From contig NZ_JACHMH010000001.1 in NCBI RefSeq assembly GCF_014204915.1, positions 9,151,501 through 9,215,500 on the forward strand: 64,000 nucleotides of DNA. Direction: 5' to 3'. The position numbers were made by a program, and so were the translations under genes. Source of the stretch: Crossiella cryophila (lineage in GTDB: Bacteria; Actinomycetota; Actinomycetes; Mycobacteriales; Pseudonocardiaceae). The notes under the pieces were generated by a model. It was not told where the DNA came from. It saw only the letters and a list, made by a program, of their open reading frames with translations, and searched no databases. Shown piece by piece: positions 1 to 20,325 of the stretch (position 1 is the stretch's first letter; each line of letters starts with the position of its first letter).

Positions 1-456
1 GCGGGTCTTCATGACATCGCCCTGCACCGACCAGCCCGCCTTGGTGAGCTTGGCCAGGACCTTGACCAGTTCGCCGCCGCGCCGGTCCTCGGCCACCGCG
101 GTGCGGTAGCGGGCCACCTGGTCGGTCGCCAGCCGGTAGCAGCCACCGGCGAGCATCAGCCCGTTCGCGGAGATCTGCACGTAGTAGGTGGACTCCCCCA
201 GCTCACCCCCGGCCAGCGCGCCAGCCGCGGTCTTGTAGGGCGACTTGTCGTGGCTGAACCGGACATCCCGGTACGGCCGGAACAACTTGCCCGCGCCGAA
301 CTCCTCTTCCAGCTCGGCCAGCATCGCGAGCATCGGCGCCCGGACATCCTGGTCGTAGGTGTCCTTGTGATCGGTCCAGTAGGCCTTGGAGTTGTCAGCC
401 TCCAGACCGTCGTAGAAGTCAACGGCGTGCTCGCCGAACCCGGTGAATCCCATCAT
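1..456 (-). CDS. DUF2461 family protein, partial (3' end beyond the window)
   Basis: The minus-strand frame runs open from ATG at 456 to the window edge, about 151 codons. It reads MMGFTGFGEHAVDFYDGL and later FRPYRDVRFSHDKSPYK, matching the neighbouring copy almost motif for motif. This family (DUF2461, TIGR02453) has no firmly assigned function. ATG 456 overlaps the TGA of the upstream paralogue in an ATGA junction, which suggests translational coupling; ATG 453 is the alternative start. The C-terminal part lies outside the window, so completeness cannot be judged. A local duplication of the upstream gene is the simplest explanation for its origin. Confidence 0.85.
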   Translation of the reverse strand, partial: MMGFTGFGEHAVDFYDGLEADNSKAYWTDHKDTYDQDVRAPMLAMLAELEEEFGAGKLFRPYRDVRFSHDKSPYKTAAGALAGGELGESTYYVQISANGLMLAGGCYRLATDQVARYRTAVAEDRRGGELVKVLAKLTKAGWSVQGDVMKTR

Positions 457-1106
457 CGCCGCCACTGGTCGCTGAGGCCGACATGGTCGGCACACCATTC
501 GTTGATCGCGTTCAGTTCCCGCCAGCCCAGCCGGACGCGTTCCAGGCATTCCGGGCCGTGCAGGTCGTCGTCAGGGGGCCAGCGCCGGGCGACGTAGATG
601 GAGCGGTGCCGCAGGAGGTCCAGGCGCGGGTGCTCGGGGTCGGCGCCACGGGGTTTGGTCTTCATGACGTCGCCACACACCTCCCAGCCCTTCTTGACCA
701 ACTTGGCCAGGATGACCCGGAACTGCTCCCCGCGCCGCTCGTCGTCCACGGCGGTGCGATAGCGGGCGAGCTGGTCCGGGGCCATCGCGAAGGACCCGCC
801 GCCGATCATGAGCCCCTCGGCGCCGACCTCCACATACCAGGCCCCGCCGCCACGCCCCTGCTCGACGACGCCGCCGCAGTGGTCCTTGTAGGGGCGTTTG
901 TCCTTGCTGAAGCGGACGTCGCGGTAGGGGCGGAACACCTTGCCCGCGCCGAACTCGGGTTCGAGTTCGGTGAGCAGGCGTTCCATGGGGGCGCGGATGT
1001 CGCGGTCGTAGACGGGCTTGTTGTCGGTCCAGTAGGACTTGGAGTTGTCGGCCACCAGCCCGTCGAAGAAGTCGACCGCGTACTCCCCGAACCCCGAGAA
1101 CTCCAT
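453..1106 (-). CDS. DUF2461 family protein
   Basis: The predicted protein has 217 residues from ATG 1106 (MEFSGFGEYAVDFFDGL). An in-frame ATG 30 bases upstream would add a basic stretch absent from the paralogue, so the shorter start is preferred. The conserved family blocks are visible: YWTDNKPVYDRDIRAPM, FRPYRDVRFSKDKRPYKDH, and a C-terminal region with LDLLRHRSIYVARRW. Length fits the family (about 210-230 residues). It ends in an ATGA overlap with a second DUF2461 gene, so the two form a tandem pair and probably an operon. The biochemical role is unknown. No strong ribosome binding site is visible. Confidence 0.85.
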   Translation of the reverse strand: MEFSGFGEYAVDFFDGLVADNSKSYWTDNKPVYDRDIRAPMERLLTELEPEFGAGKVFRPYRDVRFSKDKRPYKDHCGGVVEQGRGGGAWYVEVGAEGLMIGGGSFAMAPDQLARYRTAVDDERRGEQFRVILAKLVKKGWEVCGDVMKTKPRGADPEHPRLDLLRHRSIYVARRWPPDDDLHGPECLERVRLGWRELNAINEWCADHVGLSDQWRR

Positions 1107-1274
1107 GCGGCGCAGCCTACGACCGCCCCCCGACACTCCCCGATCCGGCTAACCAGGGTTCACAAACCCGGACGGGGCGGGGGTTGGGGTTGGGGGTGAA
1201 AACCCCACGACGAGGGTTCTCGTGTGTTCTCCGTACGGCCTGGAGCTTGCTGACCGCGCCTCGCCGAGTGGCCC

Positions 1275-1364
1275 CTGCTCTTGATCTAAAACCCAAAGTC
1301 AAGATCAAGGGCGTCCTCGCCGGACGGGCAGAAATCAAAGGATGGGGGGGAAAGTCAAGAGCAG
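1275..1364. repeat. Nested short inverted and direct repeats in intergenic region
   Basis: Within the gene-free stretch 1107-1773, CTTGATCT (1280-1287) faces AGATCAAG (1302-1309), giving an 8-bp stem. The 10-mer CTGCTCTTGA (1275-1284) has its exact reverse complement at 1355-1364. AAAGTCAAGA occurs twice as a direct repeat near 1296 and 1352. No convincing coding frame is present. The pattern looks like remnants of a small non-coding repeat element, but no element family is recognised. Confidence 0.45.
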
Positions 1365-1380
1365 AGAACAGTGCTCGTAC

Positions 1381-1529
1381 GGTTCCCCCATCCCCGTCAG
1401 CCCTCCGATACCAAACCACATCCCGGGCAAGCGGCCCGTTGCGGTTGAGAGGCTAGGGCGGCGGCAGGTTGCAGGCCGCTTGCCCGGGATGCGGTGTGTC
1501 CTCTCCAGGCTGACGGGGATGGGGGAACC
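1381..1529. repeat. Large two-part inverted repeat (149 bp)
   Basis: A 22-bp outer arm at 1381-1402 (starts GGTTCCCCCATCCCCG) pairs perfectly with 1508-1529. An 18-bp inner arm at 1419-1436 (CATCCCGGGCAAGCGGCC) pairs perfectly with 1474-1491. The two spacers between outer and inner arms are each exactly 16 nt and only weakly complementary, so the folded form would be a long stem with a symmetric internal loop and a 37-nt apical loop. It lies about 245 bases downstream of the gltD stop and does not overlap any gene. It resembles a MITE or a REP-like palindrome; no target-site duplication was identified. Confidence 0.75.
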
Positions 1530-1598
1530 GCTCGGGGAGTGTTGAAAAGCCACCCCGGCCGCCTGTTCGGGCTTCGCCCGCACGCAATCGCCCAAGGC

Positions 1599-1760
1599 GT
1601 ACAAGAACGGCCAACACTGGGTACGACAACGGCCAACACGCGCGGAGGGGGTTCGAACTCGAACCCCTCGCCGGCGTGTTGGCCGTTGTCGTACGGTGTG
1701 TTGGCCGTTATGGGACGGCACGTTGGCCGTTCTGGTACGCCGTGTTGGCTGTTGTTGTGC
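1599..1760. repeat. 22-bp repeat array, copy 1: two inverted units, palindromic core, four direct units
   Basis: Two units (1599-1620 and 1621-1642) in one orientation are followed by a hairpin core (GGGGTTCGA at 1648-1656, TCGAACCCC at 1659-1667). Four contiguous units then follow in the opposite orientation: 1673-1694, 1695-1716, 1717-1738 and 1739-1760. Each is exactly 22 bp, with conserved centre TGTTGGCCGTT and usually a GTAC end. The array ends 13 bases before the gltD stop codon (minus strand), so it sits at the gltD 3' end. The core hairpin could act as a terminator. The same layout recurs at 19099-19249. Confidence 0.85.
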
Positions 1761-1773
1761 GGGGGGTTGGGTG

Positions 1774-3271
1774 TTAGCGGACTGCCAGGGGGACCAGGTT
1801 GGGGCGGACTGGGCTGGGGAGGGTGCTGGCGCCGGTTAGGTAGGTGTCTACGGCGTGGGCGGCTGAGCGGCCTTCGGCGATTGCCCAGACGACCAGGGAG
1901 GCTCCTCGGTGGGCGTCGCCGCAGACGAAGACGCCGGGGGCGTCTGTTTGCCAGTCGGAGCCGCAGGAGATGGAGCCTCGTTTGTTCAGGTCGATGCCCA
2001 GTTCCGGGAGCAGGGGCATGTGTTCCACACCCTCGAAGCCGATGGCGAGCAGGGCCAGGTCGCAGGGGAGTTCTTCTACCTCGTCGGAGACGGGGATCAC
2101 CGCGCGGCGGCCGTCGGCGTCCTTTTCCACCCGGACCTTGCGCAGGCGCACCGCGCGGACCTGGCCTTCGCCGTTGTCGACGAATTCCTCGACGGCTACC
2201 GCGAACTTGCGTTCGCCGCCCTCGTCGTGGGCTGGGTAGGTGTGCAGGACCACGGGCCAGACCGGCCACGGCGAGCGTTCCTCGTCGCGGGCGGTGGGGG
2301 GCATGGGGTACTGGTCGAGTTGCAGTACGCCCGCGGCGCCCTGGCGGTGTGCGGTGCCGAGGCAGTCGGCCGCGGTGTCGCCGCCGCCGATGATGACCAC
2401 GTGCTTGCCCGCGGCGTCGATGTGGGTGGGGCCGTCGCCTTCGCAGAACTTGTTGGCGGGCACCAGGTGTTCCATCGCCAGGTGGACGCCTGCCAGGTTG
2501 CGGCCGGGGATGTCCGGGGCGTCCCGGCCGCGCAGGGCGCCGACCGCGAGCACCACGGCGTCGAAGTCGGCGCGCAGCTGTTCGACGGTCAGGTCGACGC
2601 CGACCTCGCAGTTGGTGATGAACTTGGTGCCCTCGGCGCGCAGCTGGGACAGCCTGCGGTCCAGGATCCGCTTCTCCATCTTGAACTCGGGGATGCCGTA
2701 GCGGAGCAGGCCGCCGAGGCGGTCGTCGCGCTCGTACACGGTGACCTCGTGGCCGGCCCTGGTCAGTTGCTGGGCGGCGGCCAGGCCGGCGGGGCCGGAG
2801 CCGACCACGGCGACCTTCTTGCCGGAGTGCACCGACGGCGGGTTCGGGCCCACCGTGCCCATCTCCCACACCTGGTCCGCGATGGCCTGCTCAACCCGCT
2901 TGATCGCCACCGCGCCGCCGGAGAGCGGCGAGATCGCGAGCACGCAGGCGGACTCACACGGTGCGGGGCAGAGCCTGCCGGTGAACTCGGGGAAGTTGTT
3001 GGTGCCGTGCAACCGGTCCCCGGCGTGCGCCCAGTCACCGCGGCGGACCAGGTCGTTCCACTCCGGGATCAGGTTGCCCAGCGGGCAACCGGCGGAACCG
3101 CTGTGGCAGAAGGGGATCCCGCAGTCCATGCAGCGGGTCGCCTGGGTGCGCACCTGGTCCTCGCGGACCTTCGGCTCCACCTCGGCGTACACCTCGTGCC
3201 AGTCCGCGACCCGGTCGCCCGCGGGGCGCTTGGCCGGTTCGGTGCGGGCGTGCTTCAGGAATCCGTTCGGG

Positions 3272-3279
<8 letters not shown>
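1774..3279 (-). CDS. gltD: Glutamate synthase small subunit
   Basis: The protein (501 residues) is the beta subunit of NADPH-dependent glutamate synthase; it oxidises NADPH on FAD and passes electrons to GltB. GTG 3279 is chosen because it gives VADPNGFL, has GGAGG about 10 bases upstream and overlaps the gltB stop by 8 bases. N-terminal iron-sulfur cysteines are visible at Cys50, Cys53, Cys58 and Cys65 ([12 protein letters not shown]) and in CPAPCESAC near residue 110. The FAD-binding motif [14 protein letters not shown] lies near residue 160 and the NADPH-binding [13 protein letters not shown] near residue 300. Length is normal. It is co-transcribed with gltB and followed by the 22-bp repeat array. 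Confidence 0.96.
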
Positions 3280-7840
<4,561 letters not shown>

Positions 7841-8148
7841 GCTGAAGACCTCCCTCGTCGTGTTCCGTGCTCAGGTGGTGGAATGCTGGGCACGGGACGA
7901 CGGTGGCCCGCGAGGTCACACCGGCGTACGCGCCGGTAGCGACAGGTAATCCGGACTGTAACAGGCAGGAAACCTGGAAACACCCCTCCTAGGGTGATGT
8001 CCGTCATTGCGCCGTAACGATTTACCTGCTCCATGCGACATAGCCGCAGACCCAACAGTACGCGTGTCCTGGTACTTCCCCGGGTACGGAGCGGAACACA
8101 GCGGTAACGTCCCGGGCAGTTTTCACCCGAACGACCGCAGAGGACTCG
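7841..8148. other. Divergent intergenic region between gltB and the BtuF-like gene
   Basis: This 308-base gap must hold promoters for both gltB (minus) and the ABC transporter (plus). A 7-bp hairpin, ACCGGCG (7920-7926) with CGCCGGT (7931-7937) around a 4-base loop, lies in the presumed gltB leader. A GlnR-like box is at 7958-7973. No riboswitch could be recognised, and no small gene with a good ribosome binding site was seen. Confidence 0.5.
7958..7973 (+). promoter_or_regulatory. Candidate GlnR binding site (GTAAC-N6-GAAAC)
   Basis: GTAAC (7958-7962) and GAAAC (7969-7973) are separated by exactly 6 bases, which is the 5-6-5 pattern described for the actinobacterial nitrogen regulator GlnR. 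The site lies 118 bases upstream of the gltB start, in the divergent promoter region. Glutamate synthase is a plausible nitrogen-regulated target. This is a match to a known pattern by eye; a 16-base partial consensus can also arise by chance. Confidence 0.45.
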
Positions 8149-9099
8149 ATGCGACTTCCTCGTAGTTTCCGCGCAGCACTCATCGCCGTCAGCGCCATCG
8201 CCCTCGTTGGCGGGTGCGCGAGCAGGGTTCCCGATCCAGCCCCCAGCCAAACCTCGGGTGCGGCGGAAGCGCCGTTCCCGGTGGAAGTGGCCGCGCCGGG
8301 CGGCAAACCGCTCACCCTGGCCAAGCGGCCGGAGCGGATCGTCTCGCTGAACCCGACCAGCACCGAGAGCCTGTTCGCGATCGGGGCCGGCAAGCAGGTC
8401 GTGGCCGTGGACGACCAGTCCAACTTCCCGGCCGAGGCGCCCAAGACCACGCTGTCCGGGTTCAAGCCGAACGTGGAGGCCATCGCCGGGCACCAGCCGG
8501 ACCTGGTGATCGCCTCCAACGACGCCGAGGGCGTGGTGGCCGGGCTGGAGAAGCTGAAGATCCCGGTGCTGCTGCTGCCCGCGGCCAAGACCCTCGACGA
8601 GGCGTACGGGCAGATCAGCATCCTGGGTCAGGCCACCGGGCACGGCACGCCGGCCAACGAAGTGGTCAACAAGATGAAGGGCGAGATCAGCAAGCTGGTC
8701 CGGGAAACCCCGCGGCCCGCCGAGGGGCTGAAGTATTACCACGAGCTGGACCCGACCTTCTACACCGTGACCTCCAAGACCTTCATCGGTCAGATCTACG
8801 CCCAGTTCGGCCTGGTCAACGTGGCCGACGCGGCGGACAAGACGGGCAGCGGCTACCCGCAGCTCTCCGCCGAGCAGGTGGTCAACGCCGCGCCGCGGCT
8901 GATCTTCCTGGCCGATGTGCGCTGCTGCGGCCAGAACGCGGCCGCGGTGGGCGGGCGGCCGGGCTGGTCGACGGTGCCCGCGGTGCGCGAGGGCGGCGTG
9001 GTGGCCCTGGACGACGACATCGCCTCCCGCTGGGGACCGAGGGTGGTCGAGCTGGTGCGCACCGTGTCCCAGGCCGTGACCGCCGCCGGGAAGAAGTGA
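8149..9099 (+). CDS. ABC transporter substrate-binding lipoprotein, BtuF/FecB-like
   Basis: The product (316 residues) is a class-III periplasmic-binding-type protein for cobalamin or an iron complex. The signal peptide ends in a lipobox with Cys23 (LVGGC), so the mature protein is probably membrane-anchored. The family start PERIVSLNPTSTESLFAIGAG and the helix region near residue 200 are typical. A conserved CCGQ and DIASRWGPR stand near the C-terminus. It leads a three-gene operon with permease and ATPase, with a GTGA overlap to the permease. The ligand cannot be settled from sequence; no B12 riboswitch was seen and no siderophore genes are nearby. Confidence 0.85.
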   Translation: MRLPRSFRAALIAVSAIALVGGCASRVPDPAPSQTSGAAEAPFPVEVAAPGGKPLTLAKRPERIVSLNPTSTESLFAIGAGKQVVAVDDQSNFPAEAPKTTLSGFKPNVEAIAGHQPDLVIASNDAEGVVAGLEKLKIPVLLLPAAKTLDEAYGQISILGQATGHGTPANEVVNKMKGEISKLVRETPRPAEGLKYYHELDPTFYTVTSKTFIGQIYAQFGLVNVADAADKTGSGYPQLSAEQVVNAAPRLIFLADVRCCGQNAAAVGGRPGWSTVPAVREGGVVALDDDIASRWGPRVVELVRTVSQAVTAAGKK

Positions 9100-10124
9100 C
9101 CGCCGCCGCTGTCCCCACCCGGCTCCGGTTCACCCACCTGGCACTCACCCTGCTGCTGTTGCTGGCGGTGGTGACCCTCGCGGTGCTGCTCGGCGCGATC
9201 GACCTTGGCTGGCAACGGGTGCTGGGCGAGATCCTCGCCCAGCTCACCGGCGGGCTGTCCCCGTTGTCCGCACGCGAGGCCGCGATCCTGTGGGAGCTGC
9301 GGGTGCCGAGGGTGGTGCTGGCCTGCCTGGTCGGCGCCGCCCTCGCCTCCTCCGGCGCCGCCTTCCAGGGCGTCTTCCGCAACCCCCTGGCCGACCCGTA
9401 CCTGCTGGGCGCGGCGGCAGGCGCTGGCCTTGGCGCCACCCTGGCCGTGTTCGCGGTGCCCACCTTCAGCACCGGCCTTGGCGCGCTGCCCATCGCCGCC
9501 TTCGCCGGCGCGGTCCTCGGCGTCGGCCTCACCTGGGCCCTTGGCCGCTCAGCCGGTCCCGGCACCGCGACCCTGGTGCTGGCCGGGGTCGCGGTGGCCG
9601 CCTTCCTCACCGCCCTGCAGACCTTCGTGCAGACCCTGGACGTGGACAGCCTGCGCACCATCTACACCTGGATGCTCGGCGGCCTCGGCGGCGCGGGCTG
9701 GTCCCAGGTTCTGGTGGTGCTGCCCTACATCGCGCTGTCCAGCTTCGTGCTGTGCGCCAGCGGCAGGCTGCTGGACGTGCTGGGCGTGGGCGATGAGGAG
9801 GCCGCCGCGCTGGGCCTGCACCCCCGCCGGGTCCGGCTGATCGTGCTCGGCGCGGCGTCCCTGGCCACGGCGGCGGCGGTGTCGGTGAGCGGGCTGATCG
9901 GCTTCGTCGGCATCGTGGTGCCGCACGTGGTCCGCCTGCTGGTCGCGGGCAGTTACCGGGTGCTGGTGCCGCTGTCGTTGCTGGGCGGCGCGAGCTTCGT
10001 GGTGCTGGCCGACATGGTGGCCCGCACCGTGATCGCGCCGGGCGAGTTGCCCATCGGCGTCATCACGGCCTTCACCGGCGCCCCCTTCTTCGCGGTCGTG
10101 CTGCGCCGCTCCCGGAGGCTGTAG
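9096..10124 (+). CDS. ABC transporter permease, BtuC/FecCD family
   Basis: GTG 9096 overlaps the upstream stop (GTGA) and gives a 342-residue protein, the usual length of FecCD permeases. It is strongly hydrophobic with about ten membrane segments. Family motifs seen are LGAAAGAGLGATLAVF and RNPLADPYLLG in the first half, and the cytoplasmic coupling region with GLIGFVGIVVPHVVRLL near residue 265. It forms the membrane channel for the substrate delivered by the upstream lipoprotein and is powered by the next gene. The longer open frame upstream of this start is a shadow of the substrate-binding gene. Confidence 0.92.
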   Translation: MTAAAVPTRLRFTHLALTLLLLLAVVTLAVLLGAIDLGWQRVLGEILAQLTGGLSPLSAREAAILWELRVPRVVLACLVGAALASSGAAFQGVFRNPLADPYLLGAAAGAGLGATLAVFAVPTFSTGLGALPIAAFAGAVLGVGLTWALGRSAGPGTATLVLAGVAVAAFLTALQTFVQTLDVDSLRTIYTWMLGGLGGAGWSQVLVVLPYIALSSFVLCASGRLLDVLGVGDEEAAALGLHPRRVRLIVLGAASLATAAAVSVSGLIGFVGIVVPHVVRLLVAGSYRVLVPLSLLGGASFVVLADMVARTVIAPGELPIGVITAFTGAPFFAVVLRRSRRL

Positions 10125-10895
10125 ATGCTGGAGATCAACCAGGTGTCCGCCGGTTACCGCGGCCGGATCGCGGTAGCCGACGTCACGGTGACGGTCCCCC
10201 AGGGCAGCTGGCTGGCCGTGATCGGCCCCAACGGAGCAGGCAAGTCCACCCTGCTGAAAGCCGTGGCCAACGCCGTCCCCCACACCGGCACCATCACCCT
10301 GTCCGGCACCCCCGTAACCACCCTGACCAACCGGGCCCGAGCCCGCCAGATCGGCTACGCACCCCAAACCCCCACCCTGCCCGAAGGCCTCACCGTCACC
10401 GACTACGCCCTCCTCGGCCGAACCCCGCACCTGGGCTTCCTGGCCCGCGAAGGCACCTCGGACCTCACCCTGGTCGCCGATGTCCTGGCGCGCCTGGACC
10501 TGGCCCACCTGGCCGACCGTCCACTCCCGACACTGTCCGGCGGGGAGCGTCAGCGGGCGGTGCTGGCCAGGGTGCTGGCGCAGCAGGCGGGGTTGCTGTT
10601 GCTGGACGAGCCGACGACGGGGTTGGACATCGGGCACGCGCAGTCGCTGTTGGACCTGGTGGATCGGTTGCGGCTGGCGGATGGGACGACTGTGGTGAGC
10701 ACGTTGCACGATCTGACGCTGGCCGGGCAGTACGCGGATCAGTTGCTGATGCTGGACGGGGGGCGGGTGGTCGCGGCGGGGGCTCCGGCGGAAGTGCTTA
10801 CGGCGGAACGGGTTTCGCGGCATTACGGGGCTCGGGCCGAGGTGTTGACGGCGCCGGATGGGAGCCGGGTGGTGACGCCGGTGCGGGCGGGGTGA
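10125..10895 (+). CDS. ABC transporter ATP-binding protein, BtuD/FecE-like
   Basis: The ATG follows the permease stop directly. The 256-residue ATPase has Walker A GPNGAGKST (near residue 35), a Q-loop (YAPQTPTLPEGLTV), the signature LSGGERQR and Walker B LLLLDEPTTGLD followed by the switch histidine in STLHD. It energises uptake of the B12 or iron complex. Base use changes sharply inside the gene: up to about 10525 the third positions are mostly C, and afterwards mostly G or T. The frame is unbroken across this change and the key motifs are intact on both sides. Confidence 0.94.
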   Translation: MLEINQVSAGYRGRIAVADVTVTVPQGSWLAVIGPNGAGKSTLLKAVANAVPHTGTITLSGTPVTTLTNRARARQIGYAPQTPTLPEGLTVTDYALLGRTPHLGFLAREGTSDLTLVADVLARLDLAHLADRPLPTLSGGERQRAVLARVLAQQAGLLLLDEPTTGLDIGHAQSLLDLVDRLRLADGTTVVSTLHDLTLAGQYADQLLMLDGGRVVAAGAPAEVLTAERVSRHYGARAEVLTAPDGSRVVTPVRAG

Positions 10896-10896
10896 G

Positions 10897-11409
10897 TCAG
10901 AGGTTGGGGCGGGGGTACAGGCGGCGGCCGACGAAGAACGCCAGGCCCTGCAGGGCGATCGGCAGGTAGGCGACCACCACGAACACCCAGTCCCAGCCGT
11001 CGATGTGTCCACCCCGCCTGATCTCGGTCCGCATGACCCCGAGCAGGAAGAAGGTCAGACCCAGCGCGAAGAAGAAGAGGAAGCCCCAGATCCACCCCAG
11101 CATCTGGCGGCTCCGCTGCACCAGCAACAACTCGATCTGATCGCCCCGCAGGTGCCGCCACGGGTTCAGCACCAGAAACCCGGACATGGCCAGGAAAACG
11201 TCCATCGTCAGCGCGAAGATGTAGACGAACGAGATGATCACATCGGCTCTGCTGAGCAACTGCGCACCAAGCAGGACGACCAGCACCGCCAGCACCACCG
11301 CTGAGGATCCGATGAGCATGGCGAACCAGCCGCCGAGGGTGCGGAGTCGCCGCGCGTGTTCGGCGGGGATCGGCACCCAGACCGGCGGCTGTCCGAGGTA
11401 GATCGCCAT
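10897..11409 (-). CDS. Four-helix membrane protein of unknown function
   Basis: The 170-residue protein has four hydrophobic segments: around residues 28-50, 58-80, 106-128 and 143-162. The loop between the second and third has NPWRHLRGDQIELL. No family is recognised. Its ATG (11409) shares one base with the TAA of the upstream WXG-like gene, so it is the last gene of that operon. The context suggests a partner of the secretion-related proteins made upstream, but this is only an inference. Confidence 0.75.
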   Translation of the reverse strand: MAIYLGQPPVWVPIPAEHARRLRTLGGWFAMLIGSSAVVLAVLVVLLGAQLLSRADVIISFVYIFALTMDVFLAMSGFLVLNPWRHLRGDQIELLLVQRSRQMLGWIWGFLFFFALGLTFFLLGVMRTEIRRGGHIDGWDWVFVVVAYLPIALQGLAFFVGRRLYPRPNL

Positions 11410-12170
11410 TAGCGCGGCTTCCAGTCAGACCCATCGCCATCCTGGACGCTGGCGTCGCCCATCTGCCCGATCCGGCCCTGTGACCAGGTCTCGCCGACCA
11501 TCCGCAGCTTCTCCTGGAGCGCGGACTGCTCGGCCTGGCAGGTGTTGACGTGTGCCAGCAGGCCGGTGATGAAGCTGCCGATGAGACTCGCTACCGACGG
11601 CAGCGCGGCAACGAGGATGACCAGCGCCAGCGGGATGCCGACGACGGTGGTGACCAGCGCCACCGCGGAGGCGATGCTGATGATGGCGACCACCACAGCG
11701 ACCGTGATGCCCACCCAGAAGCTCTCGATGGAATTACCCAGGTTGACCAGCGAGCCGCGCATCTGTGTCGCCAGGTCCTTCAGCCCGTTCAGGCCGCTGA
11801 CCTGGGTCGGGATTGTCAGCCGATAGGCCTCCGCAGCCTTGCCATCCCATTCCAAGGTGGTGTCCATCTTGCTCGGGTCAAGCGCACCGGCCAGGTCGTT
11901 CAGCTTGCCCGCGACCTCCGTCGACCACTACTCAGCAGCTTCCCGGACCCGACTGGCGTCCCCCCGGTCACCGAGCAGATCCTCGATTTGGTGGCCCAGC
12001 TGCATGCTGTTCCGGGCCAGCGCCTCCACCAGGAGGTCGATCCGCGGAATGATCCAGCGCAGTGGCTCCGGCACGCTGTTGATCGCCTGGTTCACCTGGC
12101 CGAAGAACTTCTTCAGGCCCTCGTCCATCTCACGCAGGCGCTGGTTGGCCCGCTGCACAGCCTCACTCAC
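11409..12170 (-). pseudogene. WXG/PPE-like membrane protein gene interrupted by an in-frame TAG
   Basis: Read from GTG 12170 (GGGGGAG is just upstream), the frame gives 80 residues ending REAAE, then TAG at 11930-11928. The same frame continues immediately as WSTEVAGKLNDLAGALDPS and then 152 further residues from Met (11867) to 11409. The join reads as one 253-residue protein: an N-terminal helical domain, a WXG-like segment, two or three hydrophobic helices (AVVVAIISIASAVALVTTV) and a hydrophilic tail. A single CAG-to-TAG change would explain it. It could be a pseudogene, a sequencing error, readthrough, or two polypeptides with the second starting at 11867. Flanking genes are intact and overlapping. 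Confidence 0.7.
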
Positions 12171-12178
12171 TGCTCCCC

Positions 12179-12490
12179 CTACTTCGTGGTGTTCTTCAGC
12201 GTGTGCAGGTTGGCCTCTTCCTCGCGCTGATACGTGTCCGCTGCCTGCCGCAGCGTCTCGCTGATCAGCCGGAAGGTCTCCGATGCCTTGCCGATCATGT
12301 CGCCCATGGTCGTGCGGGCCTGGAGGTAGGTCTGGTCCAGTCCCGCCTTGACCGCCCACTTGGACAGTTCCGGCGGGCCGAGGTGCAGGCCGTCCAGCGC
12401 TCGGCGCGGCTCCTCCAGGGCGTCCGCCGCCTCGTCCCAGCGGACGGCGTCGGCGCGCAGGGCCTCATAGGCCGCGGAAAGATCGGTCAT
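12179..12490 (-). CDS. WXG100/EspC-like helical protein
   Basis: Start ATG 12490 overlaps the upstream TGA (ATGA) and gives 103 residues beginning MTDLSAAYEALRADAVRW. The sequence is almost entirely alpha-helical and polar with no signal peptide, and has the size and heptad pattern of type VII secretion substrates. Motifs such as WDEAADALEE and the C-terminal YQREEEANLHTLKN resemble EspC/WXG-type proteins. It lies between a YbaB-like gene and the interrupted WXG/PPE-like gene. Partner binding is likely but not shown. No secretion ATPase gene is present in the window. Confidence 0.75.
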   Translation of the reverse strand: MTDLSAAYEALRADAVRWDEAADALEEPRRALDGLHLGPPELSKWAVKAGLDQTYLQARTTMGDMIGKASETFRLISETLRQAADTYQREEEANLHTLKNTTK

Positions 12491-13185
12491 GACAGCCCCA
12501 ATCGGCGCAGCAGCAGGGACGGGTCGCTCACCAGTCCGGTCAGTTCGGTGATCGCCGGGCTGGTCGGCCACGTGGTGAGATCCGGGTCGGGTGTGCTCCG
12601 GCGGCGCAGTTCGCGCAGCACCTCGGTCAACTCGCCCTCGATCTCCGGGTTACGTGCCGAGTCGGCCCAGTACGGGTCCACCGTCAGTGTGCTGACCTGA
12701 CCGTTCATCGCGGTGCCGCGCACATGCCCGCCCGCGCTCTCCACCTCGGTCCGCTGGTTCTGGACCGCGGCCAGCCGATCGGTCAGGGTGGCCAGTTCGG
12801 CGTCCACCGCGTCCATCAGCCGGAAGGCCGCGTCCGCGGTGAGTGGCGTGGTCTCCGGCGGCCTGGTCGGCACGGGCCAGGGTGGGACATCAGCCTGCCG
12901 CACCTCGTCGACCTGCTTGGCCAGGGCCTGCATCGTCGCGTTGTTGGCCGCACTCAGCACACTGCCGGCCAACGCCCTGGGATCCACCGAGCGGCGCCAG
13001 TCCGCCGCCAGCCGGACCGACAACACCTCGCCCAGCTCCCCCACCGCCACCGTCACCACCCGGTCGGCGTCCTGCCCGGTGATCCCGTCCGGCTCCGCCG
13101 AGTCCGCCTCCGGGGCCGGCCGGGACTTGGGTGTCGGCTCCCAGTCGTCGGCGTCCTCAAAACCCCAGCGTTGATCGTCACTCAT
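12487..13185 (-). CDS. YbaB/EbfC-like protein with type VII-associated context
   Basis: ATG 13185 is chosen over 13191 because the GGGGGG stretch then has about 8 bases of spacing. The 232-residue protein has an acidic N-terminus and then a block VTVAVGELGEVLSVRLAADW followed by SVDPRALAGSVLSAANNA, typical of YbaB/EbfC-like proteins found beside WXG genes in Actinobacteria. The second half (about residues 110-232) has a helical stretch and no recognised domain. It is the first gene of a four-gene operon running to 10897. The biochemical role is unknown; DNA binding is possible by family but not evident. Confidence 0.7.
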   Translation of the reverse strand: MSDDQRWGFEDADDWEPTPKSRPAPEADSAEPDGITGQDADRVVTVAVGELGEVLSVRLAADWRRSVDPRALAGSVLSAANNATMQALAKQVDEVRQADVPPWPVPTRPPETTPLTADAAFRLMDAVDAELATLTDRLAAVQNQRTEVESAGGHVRGTAMNGQVSTLTVDPYWADSARNPEIEGELTEVLRELRRRSTPDPDLTTWPTSPAITELTGLVSDPSLLLRRLGLS

Positions 13186-13278
13186 CCGCATTCCCCCCTC
13201 TGGAATGAAGTCGGCAAGGCGAACGTACCCGATATACCGTCACCGCACCCGCACAACCAATCACGCTCCGACACAAAA

Positions 13279-13319
13279 GCCGTGGGCCGGACTCGCGAAA
13301 CGCGAACCCGGCCCACGGC
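13279..13319 (-). terminator. Hairpin terminator downstream of the dicarboxylate symporter gene
   Basis: GCCGTGGGCCGG (13279-13290) pairs perfectly with CCGGCCCACGGC (13308-13319). Inside the loop TCGCG and CGCGA can extend the structure around an AAA tip. It lies 37 bases after the stop of the symporter gene and before the YbaB-like gene. The tract after the stem on the minus strand is TTTTGTGTCGG, consistent with a Rho-independent terminator. Confidence 0.75.
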
Positions 13320-13356
13320 CTTCAGTGCGATGCCGGGAGATCCCGGCGACGGAGTG

Positions 13357-14733
13357 CTAGGAAGAACTCCCCGCCTTCTCCTTCTTGTCCTCGGCCGCGC
13401 CGTTCTCGGCCTTCATCAGCTCGTCCATGTCCACCAGGGACGGGTCGCGGAGCACCCGGTCCAGTTGTTCGCGGTCCAGCGCGTTCTGCCACCTGGCGAC
13501 CACCAGGGTGCCCACGCCGTTGCCGATCAGGTTGGTGAGGGCTCTCGCTTCGGACATGAAGCGGTCGATGCCTGCGATCAGGGCGATGCCGATGCTGGCC
13601 TCGGGGATGACGTTCTGGAAGGCGACCAGGGAGGCGGCCAGGGTGACCAGGCCGGCTCCGGTGACGCCTGCCGCGCCCTTGCTGGAGAGCAGCATGAACA
13701 GCAGCAGGCCGATCTGGGTCCACAGCGGCAGGTGCGCGCCGGTGGCCTGGGCGATGAACAGGGCGCCCATGGTCAGATAGATGCAGGTGCCGTCCAGGTT
13801 GAACGAGTAGCCGGTCGGGATGGTCAGGCCGACCACCGACTTCTGCGCGCCCGCGGCCTCCAGCTTGACCAGCATCCGCGGCAGCACCGCCTCACTGGAG
13901 GAGGTGCCCAGCACGATCAGCAGCTCGTCCTTGATGAAGCGGATGAACTTGAAGATGTTGAACCCGGCCAGCTTCGCCACGCCGCCGAGCACCAGGATGA
14001 TGAACAGCACGCAGGTCAGGTAGAAGGCGATCATGAGGAACGCCAGCGAGGTCAGCACCTTGGCGCCGTTGGTGCCGATCGTGTAGGCCATGCCGCCGAA
14101 GGCGCCGACCGGCGCCGCGTACATGACGATCTTGATGACGCCGAACATGATCTTGGCGACGGTGTCCAGCGCCTGCAGGGCCTTGGCGCCGCGTTCGCCC
14201 ATCATGCCGATCGCGACCGCGACCAGCACCGCCAGCACCAGCACCTGGATCAGCTGGCCGCTGGTGAAAGCGCCGACGAAGGACTCCGGGACCAGGTGCA
14301 GGATGAACCCGGTGAAACCCTCCGTGCCCGCCGCCTTCTTCTGCGCGTCCGCGCCCGCCTTGAGGTCGGCGGCGCTGGGCTGCATGTCCAGGCCGACACC
14401 CGGCTGCAGGATGTTCACCACGATCATGCCGATCACCAGCGCGATCAGCGTCATCACGATGAAGTACATGATGGTGCGCAGTGCCAGGCCGCCGGCCTTG
14501 GCGAGGTTGCCCAGCCCCGCGATGCCGACGACGATCGTGCAGAAGATCGTGGGCGCGATGACCATCTTCACCAGATTGATGAACAGGTCCGCGAGCCACT
14601 TCAGCCCGGCTGCCTGCACGGGGAAGAGGATCCCGACCAGGATCCCCGCCGCGATCGAGACCAGCACCCAGAAGTAGAGGTGCCGGTAGATCGGCTTCCG
14701 CGTTCGCCCCCCAGCAGCGGTCGTTGCCAACAT
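13357..14733 (-). CDS. Dicarboxylate/amino acid:cation symporter, DctA-like
   Basis: The 458-residue product is a sodium/proton-coupled carrier of the DAACS family that takes up C4-dicarboxylates or acidic amino acids. ATG 14733 has GAGGAGG 6 bases upstream; the longer frame upstream lacks such a signal. About eight membrane helices plus two re-entrant hairpins are seen, with the family motifs LGTSSSEAVLPRM, GYSFNLDGTCIYLT and MLLSSKGAAGVTGAG. The tail is charged (AEDKKEKAGSSS). The gene is divergent from the TAXI receptor and lies near a two-component system that may control it. Confidence 0.93.
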   Translation of the reverse strand: MLATTAAGGRTRKPIYRHLYFWVLVSIAAGILVGILFPVQAAGLKWLADLFINLVKMVIAPTIFCTIVVGIAGLGNLAKAGGLALRTIMYFIVMTLIALVIGMIVVNILQPGVGLDMQPSAADLKAGADAQKKAAGTEGFTGFILHLVPESFVGAFTSGQLIQVLVLAVLVAVAIGMMGERGAKALQALDTVAKIMFGVIKIVMYAAPVGAFGGMAYTIGTNGAKVLTSLAFLMIAFYLTCVLFIILVLGGVAKLAGFNIFKFIRFIKDELLIVLGTSSSEAVLPRMLVKLEAAGAQKSVVGLTIPTGYSFNLDGTCIYLTMGALFIAQATGAHLPLWTQIGLLLFMLLSSKGAAGVTGAGLVTLAASLVAFQNVIPEASIGIALIAGIDRFMSEARALTNLIGNGVGTLVVARWQNALDREQLDRVLRDPSLVDMDELMKAENGAAEDKKEKAGSSS

Positions 14734-14914
14734 GTCCTCCTCGACATTGGTCCTTGTCCGGGCCGAATGCTCGTGACCGGAGAAGTTCACCGGCAAGCGA
14801 CCTGGGCGAAACTTGAGACTGTCCTGACAAATTTCCGGGCTCGGTGATAAGGCCGTTACCAGAACACCGCCAGGCCGTAGCATGCGTGCCCGGTTCATCC
14901 TGACGGACTAGCCT

Positions 14915-15877
14915 GTGAGAATGCCGCATCCAGCGCTGACCCGCCGCGCGCTGTTGCTGGGCGGAGCCGGCGCGCTGGTGACCGCCACCGTGGGCAGTTG
15001 CACGCCCAGCACCCTGCCCGATCTGCCCGAGTTGATCCTGGCCACCGGGCCGCCCGGCGCGGTCTACCGGGAGATCGGCGGCGCGCTGGCCGACGAGCTG
15101 CAGAAGTACCTCCAGCGCACCGCGGTGCGCACCAGGCCCAGCGGCGCGTCGGTGGAGAACCTGACGCTGCTCAGCAGCAACCAGGCCCAGCTCGGGTTCG
15201 TCTCACTGGATGCCATGCTGGCCCGCCAGACCAGCCCGGTGCTCGGCGTGAGCGCGGTCGGGCGGCTCTACGACAGCTTCCTGCACCTGGTGGTGCTCAA
15301 CAACTCCAAGGTGCGCACCGCCAAGGACCTGCCGGGGCGGCGGGTGGCGATCGGCGCGGCGGGCTCGGGCACCGAGTACACGGTGGAGAAGTTGCGCCGG
15401 ATCGCCGGGCTGAACTTCAACGAGGTGCGGCTGACCCAGGCCGAGGCGGCCAAACAGCTGGAGGAGGGCGCGATCGACGCCTTCTTCACCCTCACCGGCA
15501 TCCCGACCCCGGCGATCAGCGAGATGATCCGGCGGCAGGTGGCGATCCGGCTGGTGCCGCTTGCCGAACAGGCGGAGGTGCTGGCCAGTGGCGACTCCTC
15601 GGCCTACGTGCCCGCGACCATCCCGAAGACCACCTACGGCACCTACGTCCAGCCCGCGCGCACGGTCTCGGTGCCCAACCTGCTGGTGGCCAGGGAGGAC
15701 CTGCCGGCCGAGGTGGTGAAGATCGTGGCCAACACGGTGTTCTCGCAGGCCGACTCGATCGCGATCAACCACCCGGAGGCGCGGCGGATCAACCGCAGCA
15801 CCGGGATCGCCACCGGGCCGGTGCCGCTGCACCCGGGCGCGGCGGCCTGGTTCCGGGAGTACAAGCGGCTGGTCTGA
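14915..15877 (+). CDS. TAXI-family TRAP solute-binding lipoprotein (orphan)
   Basis: This 320-residue protein begins with a twin-arginine-like TRRALLLGGAGAL and a cysteine at SCTPS, so it is exported and may be lipidated. The TAXI fold is recognised from LATGPPGAVYREIGGALAD, LLSSNQAQLGFV and VAIGAAGSGTEYTVEKLRR. GTG 14915 and ATG 14921 are both possible starts. TRAP membrane subunits (DctQ/DctM) are absent on both sides. The gene lies between a DctA-type symporter and a histidine kinase. An extracellular sensing role, presenting ligand to the kinase, is therefore more likely than TRAP transport; this is inference from context. Confidence 0.88.
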   Translation: MRMPHPALTRRALLLGGAGALVTATVGSCTPSTLPDLPELILATGPPGAVYREIGGALADELQKYLQRTAVRTRPSGASVENLTLLSSNQAQLGFVSLDAMLARQTSPVLGVSAVGRLYDSFLHLVVLNNSKVRTAKDLPGRRVAIGAAGSGTEYTVEKLRRIAGLNFNEVRLTQAEAAKQLEEGAIDAFFTLTGIPTPAISEMIRRQVAIRLVPLAEQAEVLASGDSSAYVPATIPKTTYGTYVQPARTVSVPNLLVAREDLPAEVVKIVANTVFSQADSIAINHPEARRINRSTGIATGPVPLHPGAAAWFREYKRLV

Positions 15878-15914
15878 GGCCGCGGACTAGATGCGGCGGG
15901 CTGGCCGCGGCGGG

Positions 15915-17447
15915 CTAGATGCCTGCGGGCAGGGTGCTCGGCGGTGGTGGCGGCGGGTCGTCGTCCTCGTCCTCGGGCGGGAGCACCGGCGGGCGGGAGA
16001 GGTGTTTGCGTTCGCCGTCCGGGCGGCCGTCGGCCGGGTCGGTGGGGTCGAAGAGCTGTTCGGCCGGGGCGACCGGCAGCCGGATGGCCACGTCCAGGCC
16101 GTGCGGATGTGCCTGGTGCAGCCGGAACTCGCCGCCCGCCGAGGTGACCAGTTCGCTGCAGATGGCCAGGCCGAGGCCGGTGCCGGAGATGTTCTGGTGC
16201 TTGGGCGAACGCCAGAACCGGTGCAGTGCGACGGAAAGCTCGGCCTCGTCCAGACCGACGCCGTCGTCGATGACGTGCAGTTCCACGTGGCCGTCCTCGG
16301 TGCTGTCGGCCGGATCCTCGTGCCGGGCCCAGACCCGGACCCTGGTGCCGCCGGAGAGCCGGATCGCGTTGCCGACCAGTTCGTCCAGCACGCTGCCCAG
16401 TCCGCCGGGTGGTTCGAGCACGCGCAGGCCCTCGGGGATGTCCAGGCGCAGCCGGATCGCGGCGCGTTGCGCGTTGGCCTGCCAGGCCGGTTCGTGCGCG
16501 GCGACGAGTTCGTCCAGCTCGACCGGTTCGGCCGCCGCGGCGCTGTCCAGCCGGGTGGCGGCGAGCAGGGCGTCCAGCACCCGGCCCATCTCCTCGGCCT
16601 CCTCCACCGCGAGCTGGTGGGCCTGGCGGGCGGGCTCGTCGGGTAGGTGCGGTTCCAGGTTCTCCACCGCGAGGCGCAGGCTCGCGAGTGGGTTGCGTAG
16701 CTGGTGGGAGGCGTCGGCGACGAAGTCCCGCTGCCTGCGCAGGGCCCGGCCGACCACGTCGACCATGGTGTTGAAGGAGCTGGCCAGGGTGCGCAGTTCG
16801 GGTGGTCCGTGCACGTCGGCGCGGGCGTCCAGGCGGCCGCTGGCGACCCTGGCGGTGACCTCGTCCAGGCGGCGGATGGGCCGCAGGATCCAGCGGGAGA
16901 CCGGCCAGGCGGCACCGATCAGGGCGAGCAGCGGGACCAGGCCGTTGAGCGCGAGCAACAGCCAGGTGTTGACGATCTGGTGGCGCAGGCTGTCCGAGGG
17001 GGACACGGTGACCACGGCGGCCACCACCTGGCTGTCCCGGCCGACCGGTTCGACCACGACCAGCGGGGTGGTCTGCCAGGGCCAGACCACGCCGGGCGGG
17101 TTGGGTCGGTAGCCGGCGAAGGCCACGCTCAGGCCCTCGCGCACGCCGGGGGTGTTGAGGTCGATGGGGGTGTCGGAGGGCAGCATCACGTTGCCGCCGG
17201 GGTCGACCAGCACGGCGGGGATGTTGTAGAGCCGGTGGTAGCGGGTCAGCTCGTCCTGCAGCGGGGCGGTGCGGTCCAGCGCGAGCACGTTCTCGGCGAG
17301 CGCGGCGAACCGGCTGGCGTCGCTGAGCCGGTCCAGGTAGACCGACTGGGTCTCCTGCTGGCCGATCGCGGCGGCCAGTGGCACCCCGAAGGCGGCGGCC
17401 ATCGCCACCAGCAACGGCACCAGCACCGCGAGCAGTCGGCGGAGCAC
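15915..17447 (-). CDS. Sensor histidine kinase
   Basis: The 510-residue membrane kinase has a first helix at about residues 5-28, an extracytoplasmic sensor region of about 130 residues, a second helix near 165-185, and a HAMP linker. The H-box VADASHQLRNPLASL carries the phosphorylated His near residue 249. An N-box (LVGNAIRLSGG, near 357), G1 (DDGVGLD) and G2 (GTGLGLAI) complete the ATP-binding domain. The N-box has Ala-Ile-Arg after Asn where many kinases have Ala-X-Lys-Tyr/Phe. The C-terminal tail is very rich in Asp and Pro. It is transcribed with the response regulator and converges on the TAXI receptor gene. Confidence 0.92.
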   Translation of the reverse strand: MLRRLLAVLVPLLVAMAAAFGVPLAAAIGQQETQSVYLDRLSDASRFAALAENVLALDRTAPLQDELTRYHRLYNIPAVLVDPGGNVMLPSDTPIDLNTPGVREGLSVAFAGYRPNPPGVVWPWQTTPLVVVEPVGRDSQVVAAVVTVSPSDSLRHQIVNTWLLLALNGLVPLLALIGAAWPVSRWILRPIRRLDEVTARVASGRLDARADVHGPPELRTLASSFNTMVDVVGRALRRQRDFVADASHQLRNPLASLRLAVENLEPHLPDEPARQAHQLAVEEAEEMGRVLDALLAATRLDSAAAAEPVELDELVAAHEPAWQANAQRAAIRLRLDIPEGLRVLEPPGGLGSVLDELVGNAIRLSGGTRVRVWARHEDPADSTEDGHVELHVIDDGVGLDEAELSVALHRFWRSPKHQNISGTGLGLAICSELVTSAGGEFRLHQAHPHGLDVAIRLPVAPAEQLFDPTDPADGRPDGERKHLSRPPVLPPEDEDDDPPPPPPSTLPAGI

Positions 17448-17456
17448 CCCGGCCCC

Positions 17457-18119: not shown

Positions 18120-18255
18120 GAGGATCGATACTAGGCCGCGGCGGAGGGCACTGATGTCCACTACGCCGCCGAGATCGACTCGGACATGGCAGAATTCGAA
18201 CCACCGGCAGTGCACCAGGCCACCGGAGTGAGTGACCACACGCCTGGAGGCGGCC

Positions 18256-19068
18256 ATGGTGATCCGGAAAACGGATGCCGAGATCGAGCAGATGGCGACG
18301 GCGGGAGCGATCCTGGCCGAGGTGCACGAGGAACTACGCGCGGCCCTGCGCCCCGGCCTGACCACCGCTGATCTGGACAAGGTGGCGGCGCGCACGATCG
18401 AGAAGCGCGGCGCGAAACCCGGTTTCTTCGGCTACAACGGCTACCCCGCGGTGATCAACGCCTCGGTTGGTGACCAGATCGTGCACGGCATCCCCTCGCG
18501 GGAGACGAAGCTGCGCGCCGGCGACGTGCTCAGCCTGGACTGCGGGGTGGTCTGGAACGGGTTCCACTCGGATGCGGCCTGCACGTGGATCGTGGGTGGC
18601 GAGGAGGCCGCGCCGGAGCCGTTGCGGGTGCTGGTGGCGGAGACCTATCGCGCGCTGTGGGCCGGGATCGGGGCGTTGCGGGTGGGTAATCGGATCGGGG
18701 ATGTCTCGGCGGCGATCGGGGCGGTGGGGGCCGCCGGGGGGTACGGGGTGGTGTCGGACCACAACGGGCACGCGATCGGGGGGCATGGGATCGGGCGGTC
18801 GCTGCATGAGGATCCGTTCGTGCCTGGGCGGGGACGGCCAGGGCGGGGGTTGCGGCTGAAGCCTGGGTTGGTGCTGGCTATCGAGCCGATGTTCACGACG
18901 GGGCATCCTGGGTTCCGGACGCTGGGGGATGACTGGACCGTGGTGACGGTGGACGGGAGCACGGCGGCCCACTGGGAGCACACGGTGGCGATCACCGAGG
19001 GCGGACCCCGGGTACTGACCGCTCGCCCCGAGGAACTGGGACGGACTGAGCTGTCACACCTGGGCTGA
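18256..19068 (+). CDS. map: Type I methionyl aminopeptidase
   Basis: The 270-residue metalloenzyme removes the initiator methionine. ATG 18256 has GGAGG 8 bases upstream; a GTG at 18232 is possible but less likely. The metal ligands can be seen: Asp95 and Asp106 (SLDCGVVW, HSDAA), His in GHGIGRSLHE, Glu in LAIEPMF and Glu in WEHTVAI. The conserved His77 is in IVHGIP. From about 18640 the third positions shift to G and T, unlike the first third of the gene. It ends next to a 22-bp repeat array shared with lgt. A second map gene usually exists elsewhere in Actinobacteria. Confidence 0.95.
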   Translation: MVIRKTDAEIEQMATAGAILAEVHEELRAALRPGLTTADLDKVAARTIEKRGAKPGFFGYNGYPAVINASVGDQIVHGIPSRETKLRAGDVLSLDCGVVWNGFHSDAACTWIVGGEEAAPEPLRVLVAETYRALWAGIGALRVGNRIGDVSAAIGAVGAAGGYGVVSDHNGHAIGGHGIGRSLHEDPFVPGRGRPGRGLRLKPGLVLAIEPMFTTGHPGFRTLGDDWTVVTVDGSTAAHWEHTVAITEGGPRVLTARPEELGRTELSHLG

Positions 19069-19098
19069 TCGCCAAGACCGACCCAGGCGACTCCACCC

Positions 19099-19249
19099 GC
19101 CCACAACGGCCAACGACCCGTCCCACAACGGCCAACACGCCGACAGGGTTTCAACCCTGCCGGCGTGTTGGCCGTTCTCGTACCGCGTGTTGGCCGTTCT
19201 GGTACGGCGTGTTGGCCGTTCTTGTACGCCTTGTTGGCCGTTGTGGGCG
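19099..19249. repeat. 22-bp repeat array, copy 2: same two-core-four layout
   Basis: Two units (19099-19120 and 19121-19142) in one direction are followed by a core hairpin (CAGGGTT 19144-19150, AACCCTG 19153-19159). Four contiguous 22-bp units then follow in the other direction: 19162-19183, 19184-19205, 19206-19227 and 19228-19249. The shared centre is TGTTGGCCGTT, with GTAC ends in units 1-3 of the direct set. The core sequence differs from copy 1 although its shape is the same. The last unit ends 2 bases before the lgt stop codon, and the array begins 30 bases after the map stop, so it lies between converging 3' ends. Confidence 0.87.
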
Positions 19250-19251
19250 GG

Positions 19252-20325
19252 TCAGGCTTCGGGCTTGGGGTCTTCCTTGCGGGGTGCCGGGTCCTTGGGG
19301 GCCTGGTCCGCGGGGGTGTCGGCGGGGACCTTGGCCTCCTCGGGCTTGGGGCCCAGGCCGGCGGGGGGTTCTTCGCCTTCGGGGGTGGGCCTGGTGGGGT
19401 CGTCCTCGTCCGGGGCTGGGTCCTGGCGCCAGTCGGCCGGGTCCTCGCGCTTGCCGCGGACCAGGAGCAGGAAGGCGACGGCGCCCAGGAAGACCACGGC
19501 ACTGACGATGACGTTGATGCGGACGCCGAACACCAGGGTGGCGGTGTCGGTGCGCATGATCTCGATCCAGAAGCGGCCCGCGGTGTAGCCGGCCACGTAG
19601 AGGGCGAAGACGCGGCCGTGGCCCAGCCGGAACTTGCGGTCGGCCCAGACCAGCAGCAGGGCCACACCCAGGTTCCAGATCAGCTCGTACAGGAACGTGG
19701 GGTGGACCACCGCGATGGGGGTGTGGTCGGTGGCGACGCCGCCGAGGGCGTCGGGGAGGCCGGTGTCCGGGTTGATGCGGCGGTAGATCTCCAGGCCCCA
19801 TGGCAGGTCGGTGGGGCCGCCGAAGAGTTCCTGGTTGAACCAGTTGCCGAGGCGGCCGACCGCCTGGGCGACCACGATGCCGGGGGCGACCGCGTCGGCG
19901 AAGACGGCGAGCGGGACGCCCCGGCGGCGGCAGCCGATCAGGGCGCCGACCGCGCCAAGGGCGATGGCGCCCCAGATGCCAAGGCCGCCGTTCCAGATGT
20001 AGAGGGCCTCGATCGGGTTGCCGTCGGGGCCGAAGTACTTGGGCCAGTCCGTGGCCACGTGGTACAGCCTGCCGCCGATGAGCCCGAAGGGCACCGCGTA
20101 CACCGCGACGTCCACCACCGTGCCGGACTCGCCACCGCGGGCGATGAGGCGGCGTTCGCCCCACCAGATCGCGATGATGATGCCCGCGATGATGCACAGC
20201 GCGTAGGCACGCAACGGGAACGGCCCGAGCTGCCACACGCCGCGGTCAGGGCTGGGGATGGTCGCCAGGAAGGCCGAGGAATCGGCCATCAGTGCGGTCA
20301 GCGTCGCGCCAGTCACAGGCCACAC
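19252..20325 (-). CDS. lgt: Prolipoprotein diacylglyceryl transferase
   Basis: This membrane enzyme transfers diacylglycerol from phosphatidylglycerol to the lipobox cysteine of prolipoproteins. The family signature GRLGNWFNQELFG and the conserved HPTFLYELIWNL and GRFWIEIMR are present, with seven membrane segments. GTG 20325 has GGGGGG 5 bases upstream and is annotated; ATG 20289 (MADSSAFLA) is a good alternative. The last 75 residues form an acidic, proline-rich cytoplasmic tail (DPAPDEDDPTRPTPEGEEPP) seen in many actinobacterial Lgt proteins. The gene follows trpA, a common actinobacterial order. Its presumed translation start lies in two competing hairpins. Confidence 0.94.
   Translation of the reverse strand: MWPVTGATLTALMADSSAFLATIPSPDRGVWQLGPFPLRAYALCIIAGIIIAIWWGERRLIARGGESGTVVDVAVYAVPFGLIGGRLYHVATDWPKYFGPDGNPIEALYIWNGGLGIWGAIALGAVGALIGCRRRGVPLAVFADAVAPGIVVAQAVGRLGNWFNQELFGGPTDLPWGLEIYRRINPDTGLPDALGGVATDHTPIAVVHPTFLYELIWNLGVALLLVWADRKFRLGHGRVFALYVAGYTAGRFWIEIMRTDTATLVFGVRINVIVSAVVFLGAVAFLLLVRGKREDPADWRQDPAPDEDDPTRPTPEGEEPPAGLGPKPEEAKVPADTPADQAPKDPAPRKEDPKPEA

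Follow-up and report, generated by a model that had tools for sequence, protein, structure and literature searches.

Several described systems come close to the arrays that concern us. BIME and REP elements combine short units of alternating orientation into mosaics that are scattered through intergenic DNA, frequently at gene 3′ ends (PMC3733652). In Streptomyces, BldC coats head-to-tail direct repeats that vary in unit number, the repeat being 9 bp, AATTXXXX(C), and lying at promoters (PMC5859096). Prokaryotic satellites are non-coding tandem arrays scattered genome-wide, of which Amycolatopsis mediterranei is credited with 23 (PMC6749651). For arrays in Crossiella or elsewhere in the Pseudonocardiaceae, a literature search found nothing by title or abstract, most subscription journals lying outside its coverage.

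The array beside gltD in Crossiella cryophila is one of hundreds in that genome, and these arrays almost certainly constitute a dispersed, gene-end-linked mosaic family. Like the BIME and REP elements of enterobacteria and pseudomonads, they are mosaics of alternating orientation in intergenic 3′ positions. Unlike the REP unit, which is a palindrome of 20-40 bp with a GTAG or CGTC end, the Crossiella unit reads GTGTTGGCCGTT-n-T-n-G-k-A-C, an arm running in one direction does not fold, and the units follow one another head to tail with strict 22-bp phasing. Moreover, a search of the same genome for the Y1 transposase (PF01797) gave a single IS200/RAYT-like Y1_Tnp match (L208, G000:C1:6800204-6800452), which is partial (40-121 of 121) and interrupted by one in-frame TGA, and a RAYT origin was rejected on that ground. 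The arrays fail the REP/RAYT features that were tested, namely the palindromic GTAG/CGTC unit and an intact Y1 transposase. With BldC sites they share the character of actinobacterial head-to-tail direct repeats, but the unit is 22 bp, G+C-rich and at gene ends, and its binder is only postulated. They differ from satellites in having few units (2-7 per run), in their phasing and in being tied to stop codons. The block of ~700 bp associated with many of them is like a MITE in being multi-copy, in either orientation and flanked by inverted repeats, whereas the arrays also occur without it. Finally, in contrast to CRISPR arrays (repeats of ~24-48 bp with unique spacers), the 11-nt gaps keep T.G.AC fixed, there are 97 distinct spacers among 256 units, and the sites are dispersed and number in the hundreds.

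The window, meaning the whole 64,000-nt stretch of DNA analysed, carries two such arrays. The first occupies 1595-1764 and adjoins the 3′ end of gltD, a gene whose closest named match is in Crossiella sp. S99.2, at 97%. Its parts and neighbours are as follows.

453..1106, minus strand: DUF2461-family gene on the opposite side of the array-bearing space (PF09365, 155.3 bits)
1595..1638, minus strand: left arm, two 22-bp units (AACGGCCAACA at 1606-1616 and 1628-1638)
1639..1676, no strand: central core, the 38 nt separating the innermost 11-mers, an imperfect hairpin (z -3.9, 200 shuffles)
1677..1764, plus strand: right arm, four 22-bp units (11-mers at 1677, 1699, 1721 and 1743, the last two with one mismatch)
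1765..1775, plus strand: degraded extra (seventh) unit with three mismatches, in phase with the array and running into the gltD stop codon (1774-1776), as read from the sequence
1774..3225, minus strand: gltD, glutamate synthase small subunit, start codon provisional (TIGR01317, 609.7 bits against a cut-off of 447.7)

The preliminary description had presented this locus as exact 22-bp units, two inverted, then a palindromic core, then four direct. The layout is as it said, in 22-bp steps throughout; the exactness is not, since four of the six centres are exact TGTTGGCCGTT while 1721 reads CGTTGGCCGTT and 1743 reads TGTTGGCTGTT, each with one mismatch, and the 11 bases separating the centres vary. 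Exact 11-mers number 9 in the window, against 0.00 expected from 100 shuffles. The second array repeats this <<>>>> layout and takes up the space separating two convergent genes.

18232..19068, plus strand: map, type I methionyl aminopeptidase, convergent with lgt (TIGR00500, 238.5 bits, cut-off 171.35)
19105..19242, no strand: second array, with a 28-nt core at 19138-19165
19252..20316, minus strand: lgt, prolipoprotein diacylglyceryl transferase (TIGR00544, 150.9 bits, cut-off 118.9)

The window also holds, at 60341-60486, a tandem repeat with 34/67-bp units and matches of 87-92%.

The structure of the unit was taken from a sample of 94 stretches (1,915,700 bases, 40 of the stretches chosen for holding arrays) containing 468 units at one mismatch or fewer; L067 and L068, which overlap other stretches, were excluded from the unit, covariation and placement counts. 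Among same-strand neighbours no more than 100 bp apart, 256 of 278 are spaced by 22 bp, 10 by 21 bp and 12 by 43-44 bp. The profile of 256 units has at least 95% one base at positions 0-11, 13, 15, 17 and 18, with 12, 14, 16, 19, 20 and 21 variable, although positions 1-11 are part of the search string and conservation there comes partly by selection. When 276 units were chosen instead by TTGGCC at both ends, fixed bases were seen at G7 (0.99), T11 (0.99), G13, A15 and C16 (1.00 each) and G22 (0.97), and positions 10, 12 and 17-19 were free or nearly so. The 42 units from Crossiella sp. S99.2 (G108) give G13 at 1.00, T11 at 0.93, A15 at 0.86 and C16 at 0.88, while the three bases 3′ of TTGGCC are GTT in 18, CAA in 11, AAA in 5, GAA in 4, and others. 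The constrained bases come to GTGTTGGCCGTT..T.G.AC in the window's own genome and to TTGGCC-N6-GTAC across unit types. Spacers next to each other show no greater likeness than shuffled ones; identical neighbouring pairs number 13, against a mean of 4.4 and a maximum of 14 in 500 shuffles, and some of the spacer identity points to copying, because neighbouring-spacer pairs recur above chance.

At up to two mismatches, the dimer TGTTGGCCGTT-N11-TGTTGGCCGTT has 667 matches in the 10.06-Mb genome of the window (G000) and 0 in the control. The preliminary description had named as grounds for refutation the case of only two copies, lying at non-orthologous places in relatives; that case does not apply, for the copies run to hundreds, and all ten sampled sites are common to G108. 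Of 200 family genomes, ten have dimer matches, the five Crossiella genomes with 667, 187, 140, 53 and 2 and five genomes outside the genus with 1-2 apiece. The exact scaffold TTGGCC-N6-GTAC-N6-TTGGCC occurs 575, 355, 228, 140 and 0 times in the five Crossiella genomes and once, in one genome, among the 292 other family genomes. Allowing it two mismatches gives (controls in brackets) 822 (10) in G000, 825 (16) in G108 and, in the other Crossiella, 325 (9) in G055, 299 (9) in G016 and 26 (11) in G086. The last is nearly array-free where its relatives have hundreds, and because G086 lives almost without them, the arrays are dispensable. A wider search for GTGTTNGCC repeats at 21/22 bp in 348 genomes of the order found 64 in G009, 56 in G092 and 24 in G145, from two other genera, with a spacing of 21 bp in all of the matches listed (33 of 144); no order genome beyond these three and G000 had more than 2. 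A replichore polarity, suggested by + arrays only at 2.5-4.9 Mb among the matches listed, was rejected when random 20-kb samples showed mixed orientations. Carriage by phage or plasmid was likewise rejected on the viral stretches and plasmids searched: the scaffold occurs once each in 8 viral stretches, with no array in their surroundings, and a plasmid search with block and array gave no match.

Mapping against gene 3′ ends, which the preliminary description had proposed, bore out the linkage seen at gltD. Genes were called with a custom codon-usage caller, and the 800 spaces measuring 40 bp or more served as background. Array-bearing spaces (n = 64) divide into 38 convergent, 22 tandem and 4 divergent, against 150, 449 and 201 in the background, a convergent excess with p 7.6e-13. 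From a stop codon to the nearest array edge the median distance is 19 bp, with 70 of the 98 lying no more than 40 bp away; from a start codon it is 160 bp (6 of 30 within 40 bp). Even in tandem spaces, the array is closer to the 3′ end in 17 of 22. Of 99 array clusters, 7 fall within predicted genes, and another 3 lie at edges or in other places. The first unit 3′ of a stop codon may have either orientation, and arrays running in one direction (">>", ">>>") also follow stops.

The genes of G108 and G000 are 95.2% identical, and 326 syntenic spaces (220 + 106) could be compared. Arrays are present in both genomes at 10 of 10 G000 sites, in G108 only at 1, and in neither at 314, with none confined to G000 (Fisher p 3.5e-18); one divergent space, pair 316, was flagged in both genomes and set aside as a chance match, outside the ten sites and the Fisher table. 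Such sharing is not proof of function, since it is expected by descent at 95% gene identity. The notable point is rather that unit type and flanks have changed at sites that were kept. The unit type is wholly different at 4 of the 10 shared sites (pairs 24 and 42, gltD and L182-6), mixed at 3 (L182-14, L184-5 and L185-16) and the same at 3 (212, L183-9 and L185-4). Moreover, array-bearing spaces diverge faster than array-free ones: the median matched fraction is 0.34 in convergent (n = 7) and 0.63 in tandem (n = 3) array spaces, compared with 0.84 (convergent, n = 22), 0.93 (n = 86) and 0.97 (divergent, n = 36) where arrays are lacking, and the array spaces are too diverged for placing clean element ends or a target-site duplication. 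In the other Crossiella, G055 keeps arrays at both of its comparable sites (77 spaces), and in G016 the array is absent at the sole comparable site, gltD (55 spaces), where G086 has none either. At map-lgt, G000, G108 and G055 all have arrays and G086 has a degraded one, whereas G016 showed none.

Arrays have two layouts, "<<< short hairpin >>>" and ">>> ~700-bp hairpin-rich block <<<". Short cores flanked by inverted units number 53 and measure 16-50 nt, and their sequences vary with the pairing ends retained. Units facing inward across other sequence enclose 49 gaps, 17 of them longer than 600 bp; gaps of 80-1300 bp running from "<" to ">" were not seen in the sampled stretches. Of the 16 other long gaps, 15 are 84-88% matches to the first, whichever way round they lie, and the one without a match to this query copy (L198_11462) was excluded from the alignment, which brings together 16 copies at 79-92% identity (mean 85.5%). 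TGTTGG...CCAACA stands outermost around the block. The consensus folds, in a prediction made without a shuffle control, into three large hairpins, and contains a reading frame open for as many as 231 codons. In one of the hairpins the tip stem varies from copy to copy, its two sides changing in step. One copy reaches into the window, and another illustrates the full arrangement.

1180..1597, no strand: partial copy of the ~700-bp block, outer limit approximate, with a 92% match elsewhere in G000 (arms 1412-1436 and 1474-1498)
L041, 12116-12792: example block copy flanked by inward-facing arrays

The block stands without arrays in G086 and G055 (L212 and L210). A 32-bp motif of it (window 1301-1332) is found in 31 of 297 genomes, 26 of them outside the genus, in six other genera. 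The copies outside the genus (L213-L218) adjoin other large hairpins; L214 has a 22-bp array of other sequence and L216 a 21-bp GTGTTGGCC array.

From this we infer, tentatively, that the arrays are a BIME-like mosaic of putative protein-binding sites with a boundary role at the ends of transcription units. A protein-binding array was one of three guesses made at the outset, beside a mobile repeat and a terminator or structured 3′ RNA, and it is the one we prefer. The constrained bases of the 22-bp unit would be a putative sequence-specific site for a postulated DNA-binding protein, and the head-to-tail arrays would let several copies of that protein bind about two helical turns apart. The original notion that every unit presents the same face of the helix is only approximate, 22 bp being 2.1 turns at 10.5 bp/turn, and the arrays of other genera step by 21 bp. 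The inverted arms would flank a small hairpin, with many arrays facing each other across the ~700-bp block; the arrays would stand where transcription units end, chiefly between converging genes; and with protein bound to it, an array could halt or insulate RNA polymerases or restrain supercoiling. A site in duplex DNA is favoured because the phasing is strict, the bases of outer units are fixed, arrays stand in either orientation after a stop codon, and the RNA-fold results, given below, point the same way.

A bolder form of this reading is possible, although we regard it as doubtful. It holds that the arrays are a gene-end boundary system whose phased sites are fixed across species while the unit sequence is replaced genome-wide together with its reader protein. 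A cis code would then be evolving in concert, with the system in its fullest form in Crossiella and as 21-bp variants in other Pseudonocardiaceae.

The arrays might instead act as RNA, the core hairpin and innermost units serving as a bidirectional terminator or 3′-end stabiliser without a U tract, with the outer units as by-products. The core with its innermost units folds at -80 kcal/mol (z -8.5), and predicted pairing in the 53 cores reaches at least 8 bp in 44 and a z below -2 in 27; the varied cores retain their pairing ends, and the elements are sited just 3′ of stops. Yet arms running in one direction do not fold (z -0.50 and -0.45), although one-direction arrays follow stop codons as well, and facing arms agree less than chance would have it, matching at 0.379 of variable positions in 59 pairs against 0.446 when shuffled; 1983 of 2000 shuffles equalled or exceeded the observed value. 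Pairing of whole arms into a long hairpin was rejected on the latter result as the source of the unit's constraint, and arm pairing in general is disfavoured because facing arms lack covariation and one-direction arms lack a fold. U-tract terminators in 1-20000 are not above chance (5 against 5.7 expected); neither array has one at its core, and the nearest candidate, 19252-19268, is inside the end of lgt; no Rfam family reached its gathering score in the window. Moreover, the fixed bases of the outer units are left unexplained. The guess of a terminator or structured 3′ RNA agrees with the fold of the core and its inner units but not with that of the arms; we rate it a serious rival, though an unlikely one.

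The preferred reading, of protein-binding sites, has also to be set against a selfish or neutral repeat that was spread or homogenised, by slippage, gene conversion or a transposase acting in trans, and is tolerated at gene 3′ ends. The genus-restricted bursts with their very uneven counts agree with such a repeat, as do the multi-copy block in its 16 copies of either orientation, the near loss in G086, the neighbouring spacers held in common and the avoidance of promoter-bearing spaces. However, the 326 syntenic spaces, with no G000-only site and one G108-only site, gave no sign of sites newly acquired by recent insertion; plain amplification does not give saturated variation next to fixed positions; and in tandem spaces the arrays hug the stop codon. 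The early idea of a mobile repeat suits the arrays less well than it does the ~700-bp block, because two comparisons gave no G000-only array site. For the arrays we likewise rate a selfish or neutral origin a serious rival, though an unlikely one.

Tn7-like ends contain repeated ~22-bp transposase sites. That the arrays are the ends of a DNA transposon family, with TGT...ACA termini, several 22-bp transposase sites and ">>> block <<<" as a non-autonomous element, is very improbable, for while inward-facing arrays do flank the block with TGTTGG...CCAACA outermost, many "<<< core >>>" arrays have no block, the block is found without arrays in two genomes, no target-site duplication was noticed in the G000/G108 pairs inspected (a non-systematic inspection), and the search for PF01797, the one family sought, found no array-linked transposase gene.

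If the arrays are selfish, their repeats still turn over unusually fast while staying anchored to their sites, as the matched fractions of convergent spaces (0.34 against 0.84) would then indicate. If instead they serve as boundaries, converging bacterial genes would be separated by an abundant insulator defined by its sequence, and Crossiella would offer a natural series of species that keep the sites and change the sequence, with G086 nearly without arrays. Both the search for a reader protein and the concerted change of hundreds of dispersed non-coding sites would then be directly testable.
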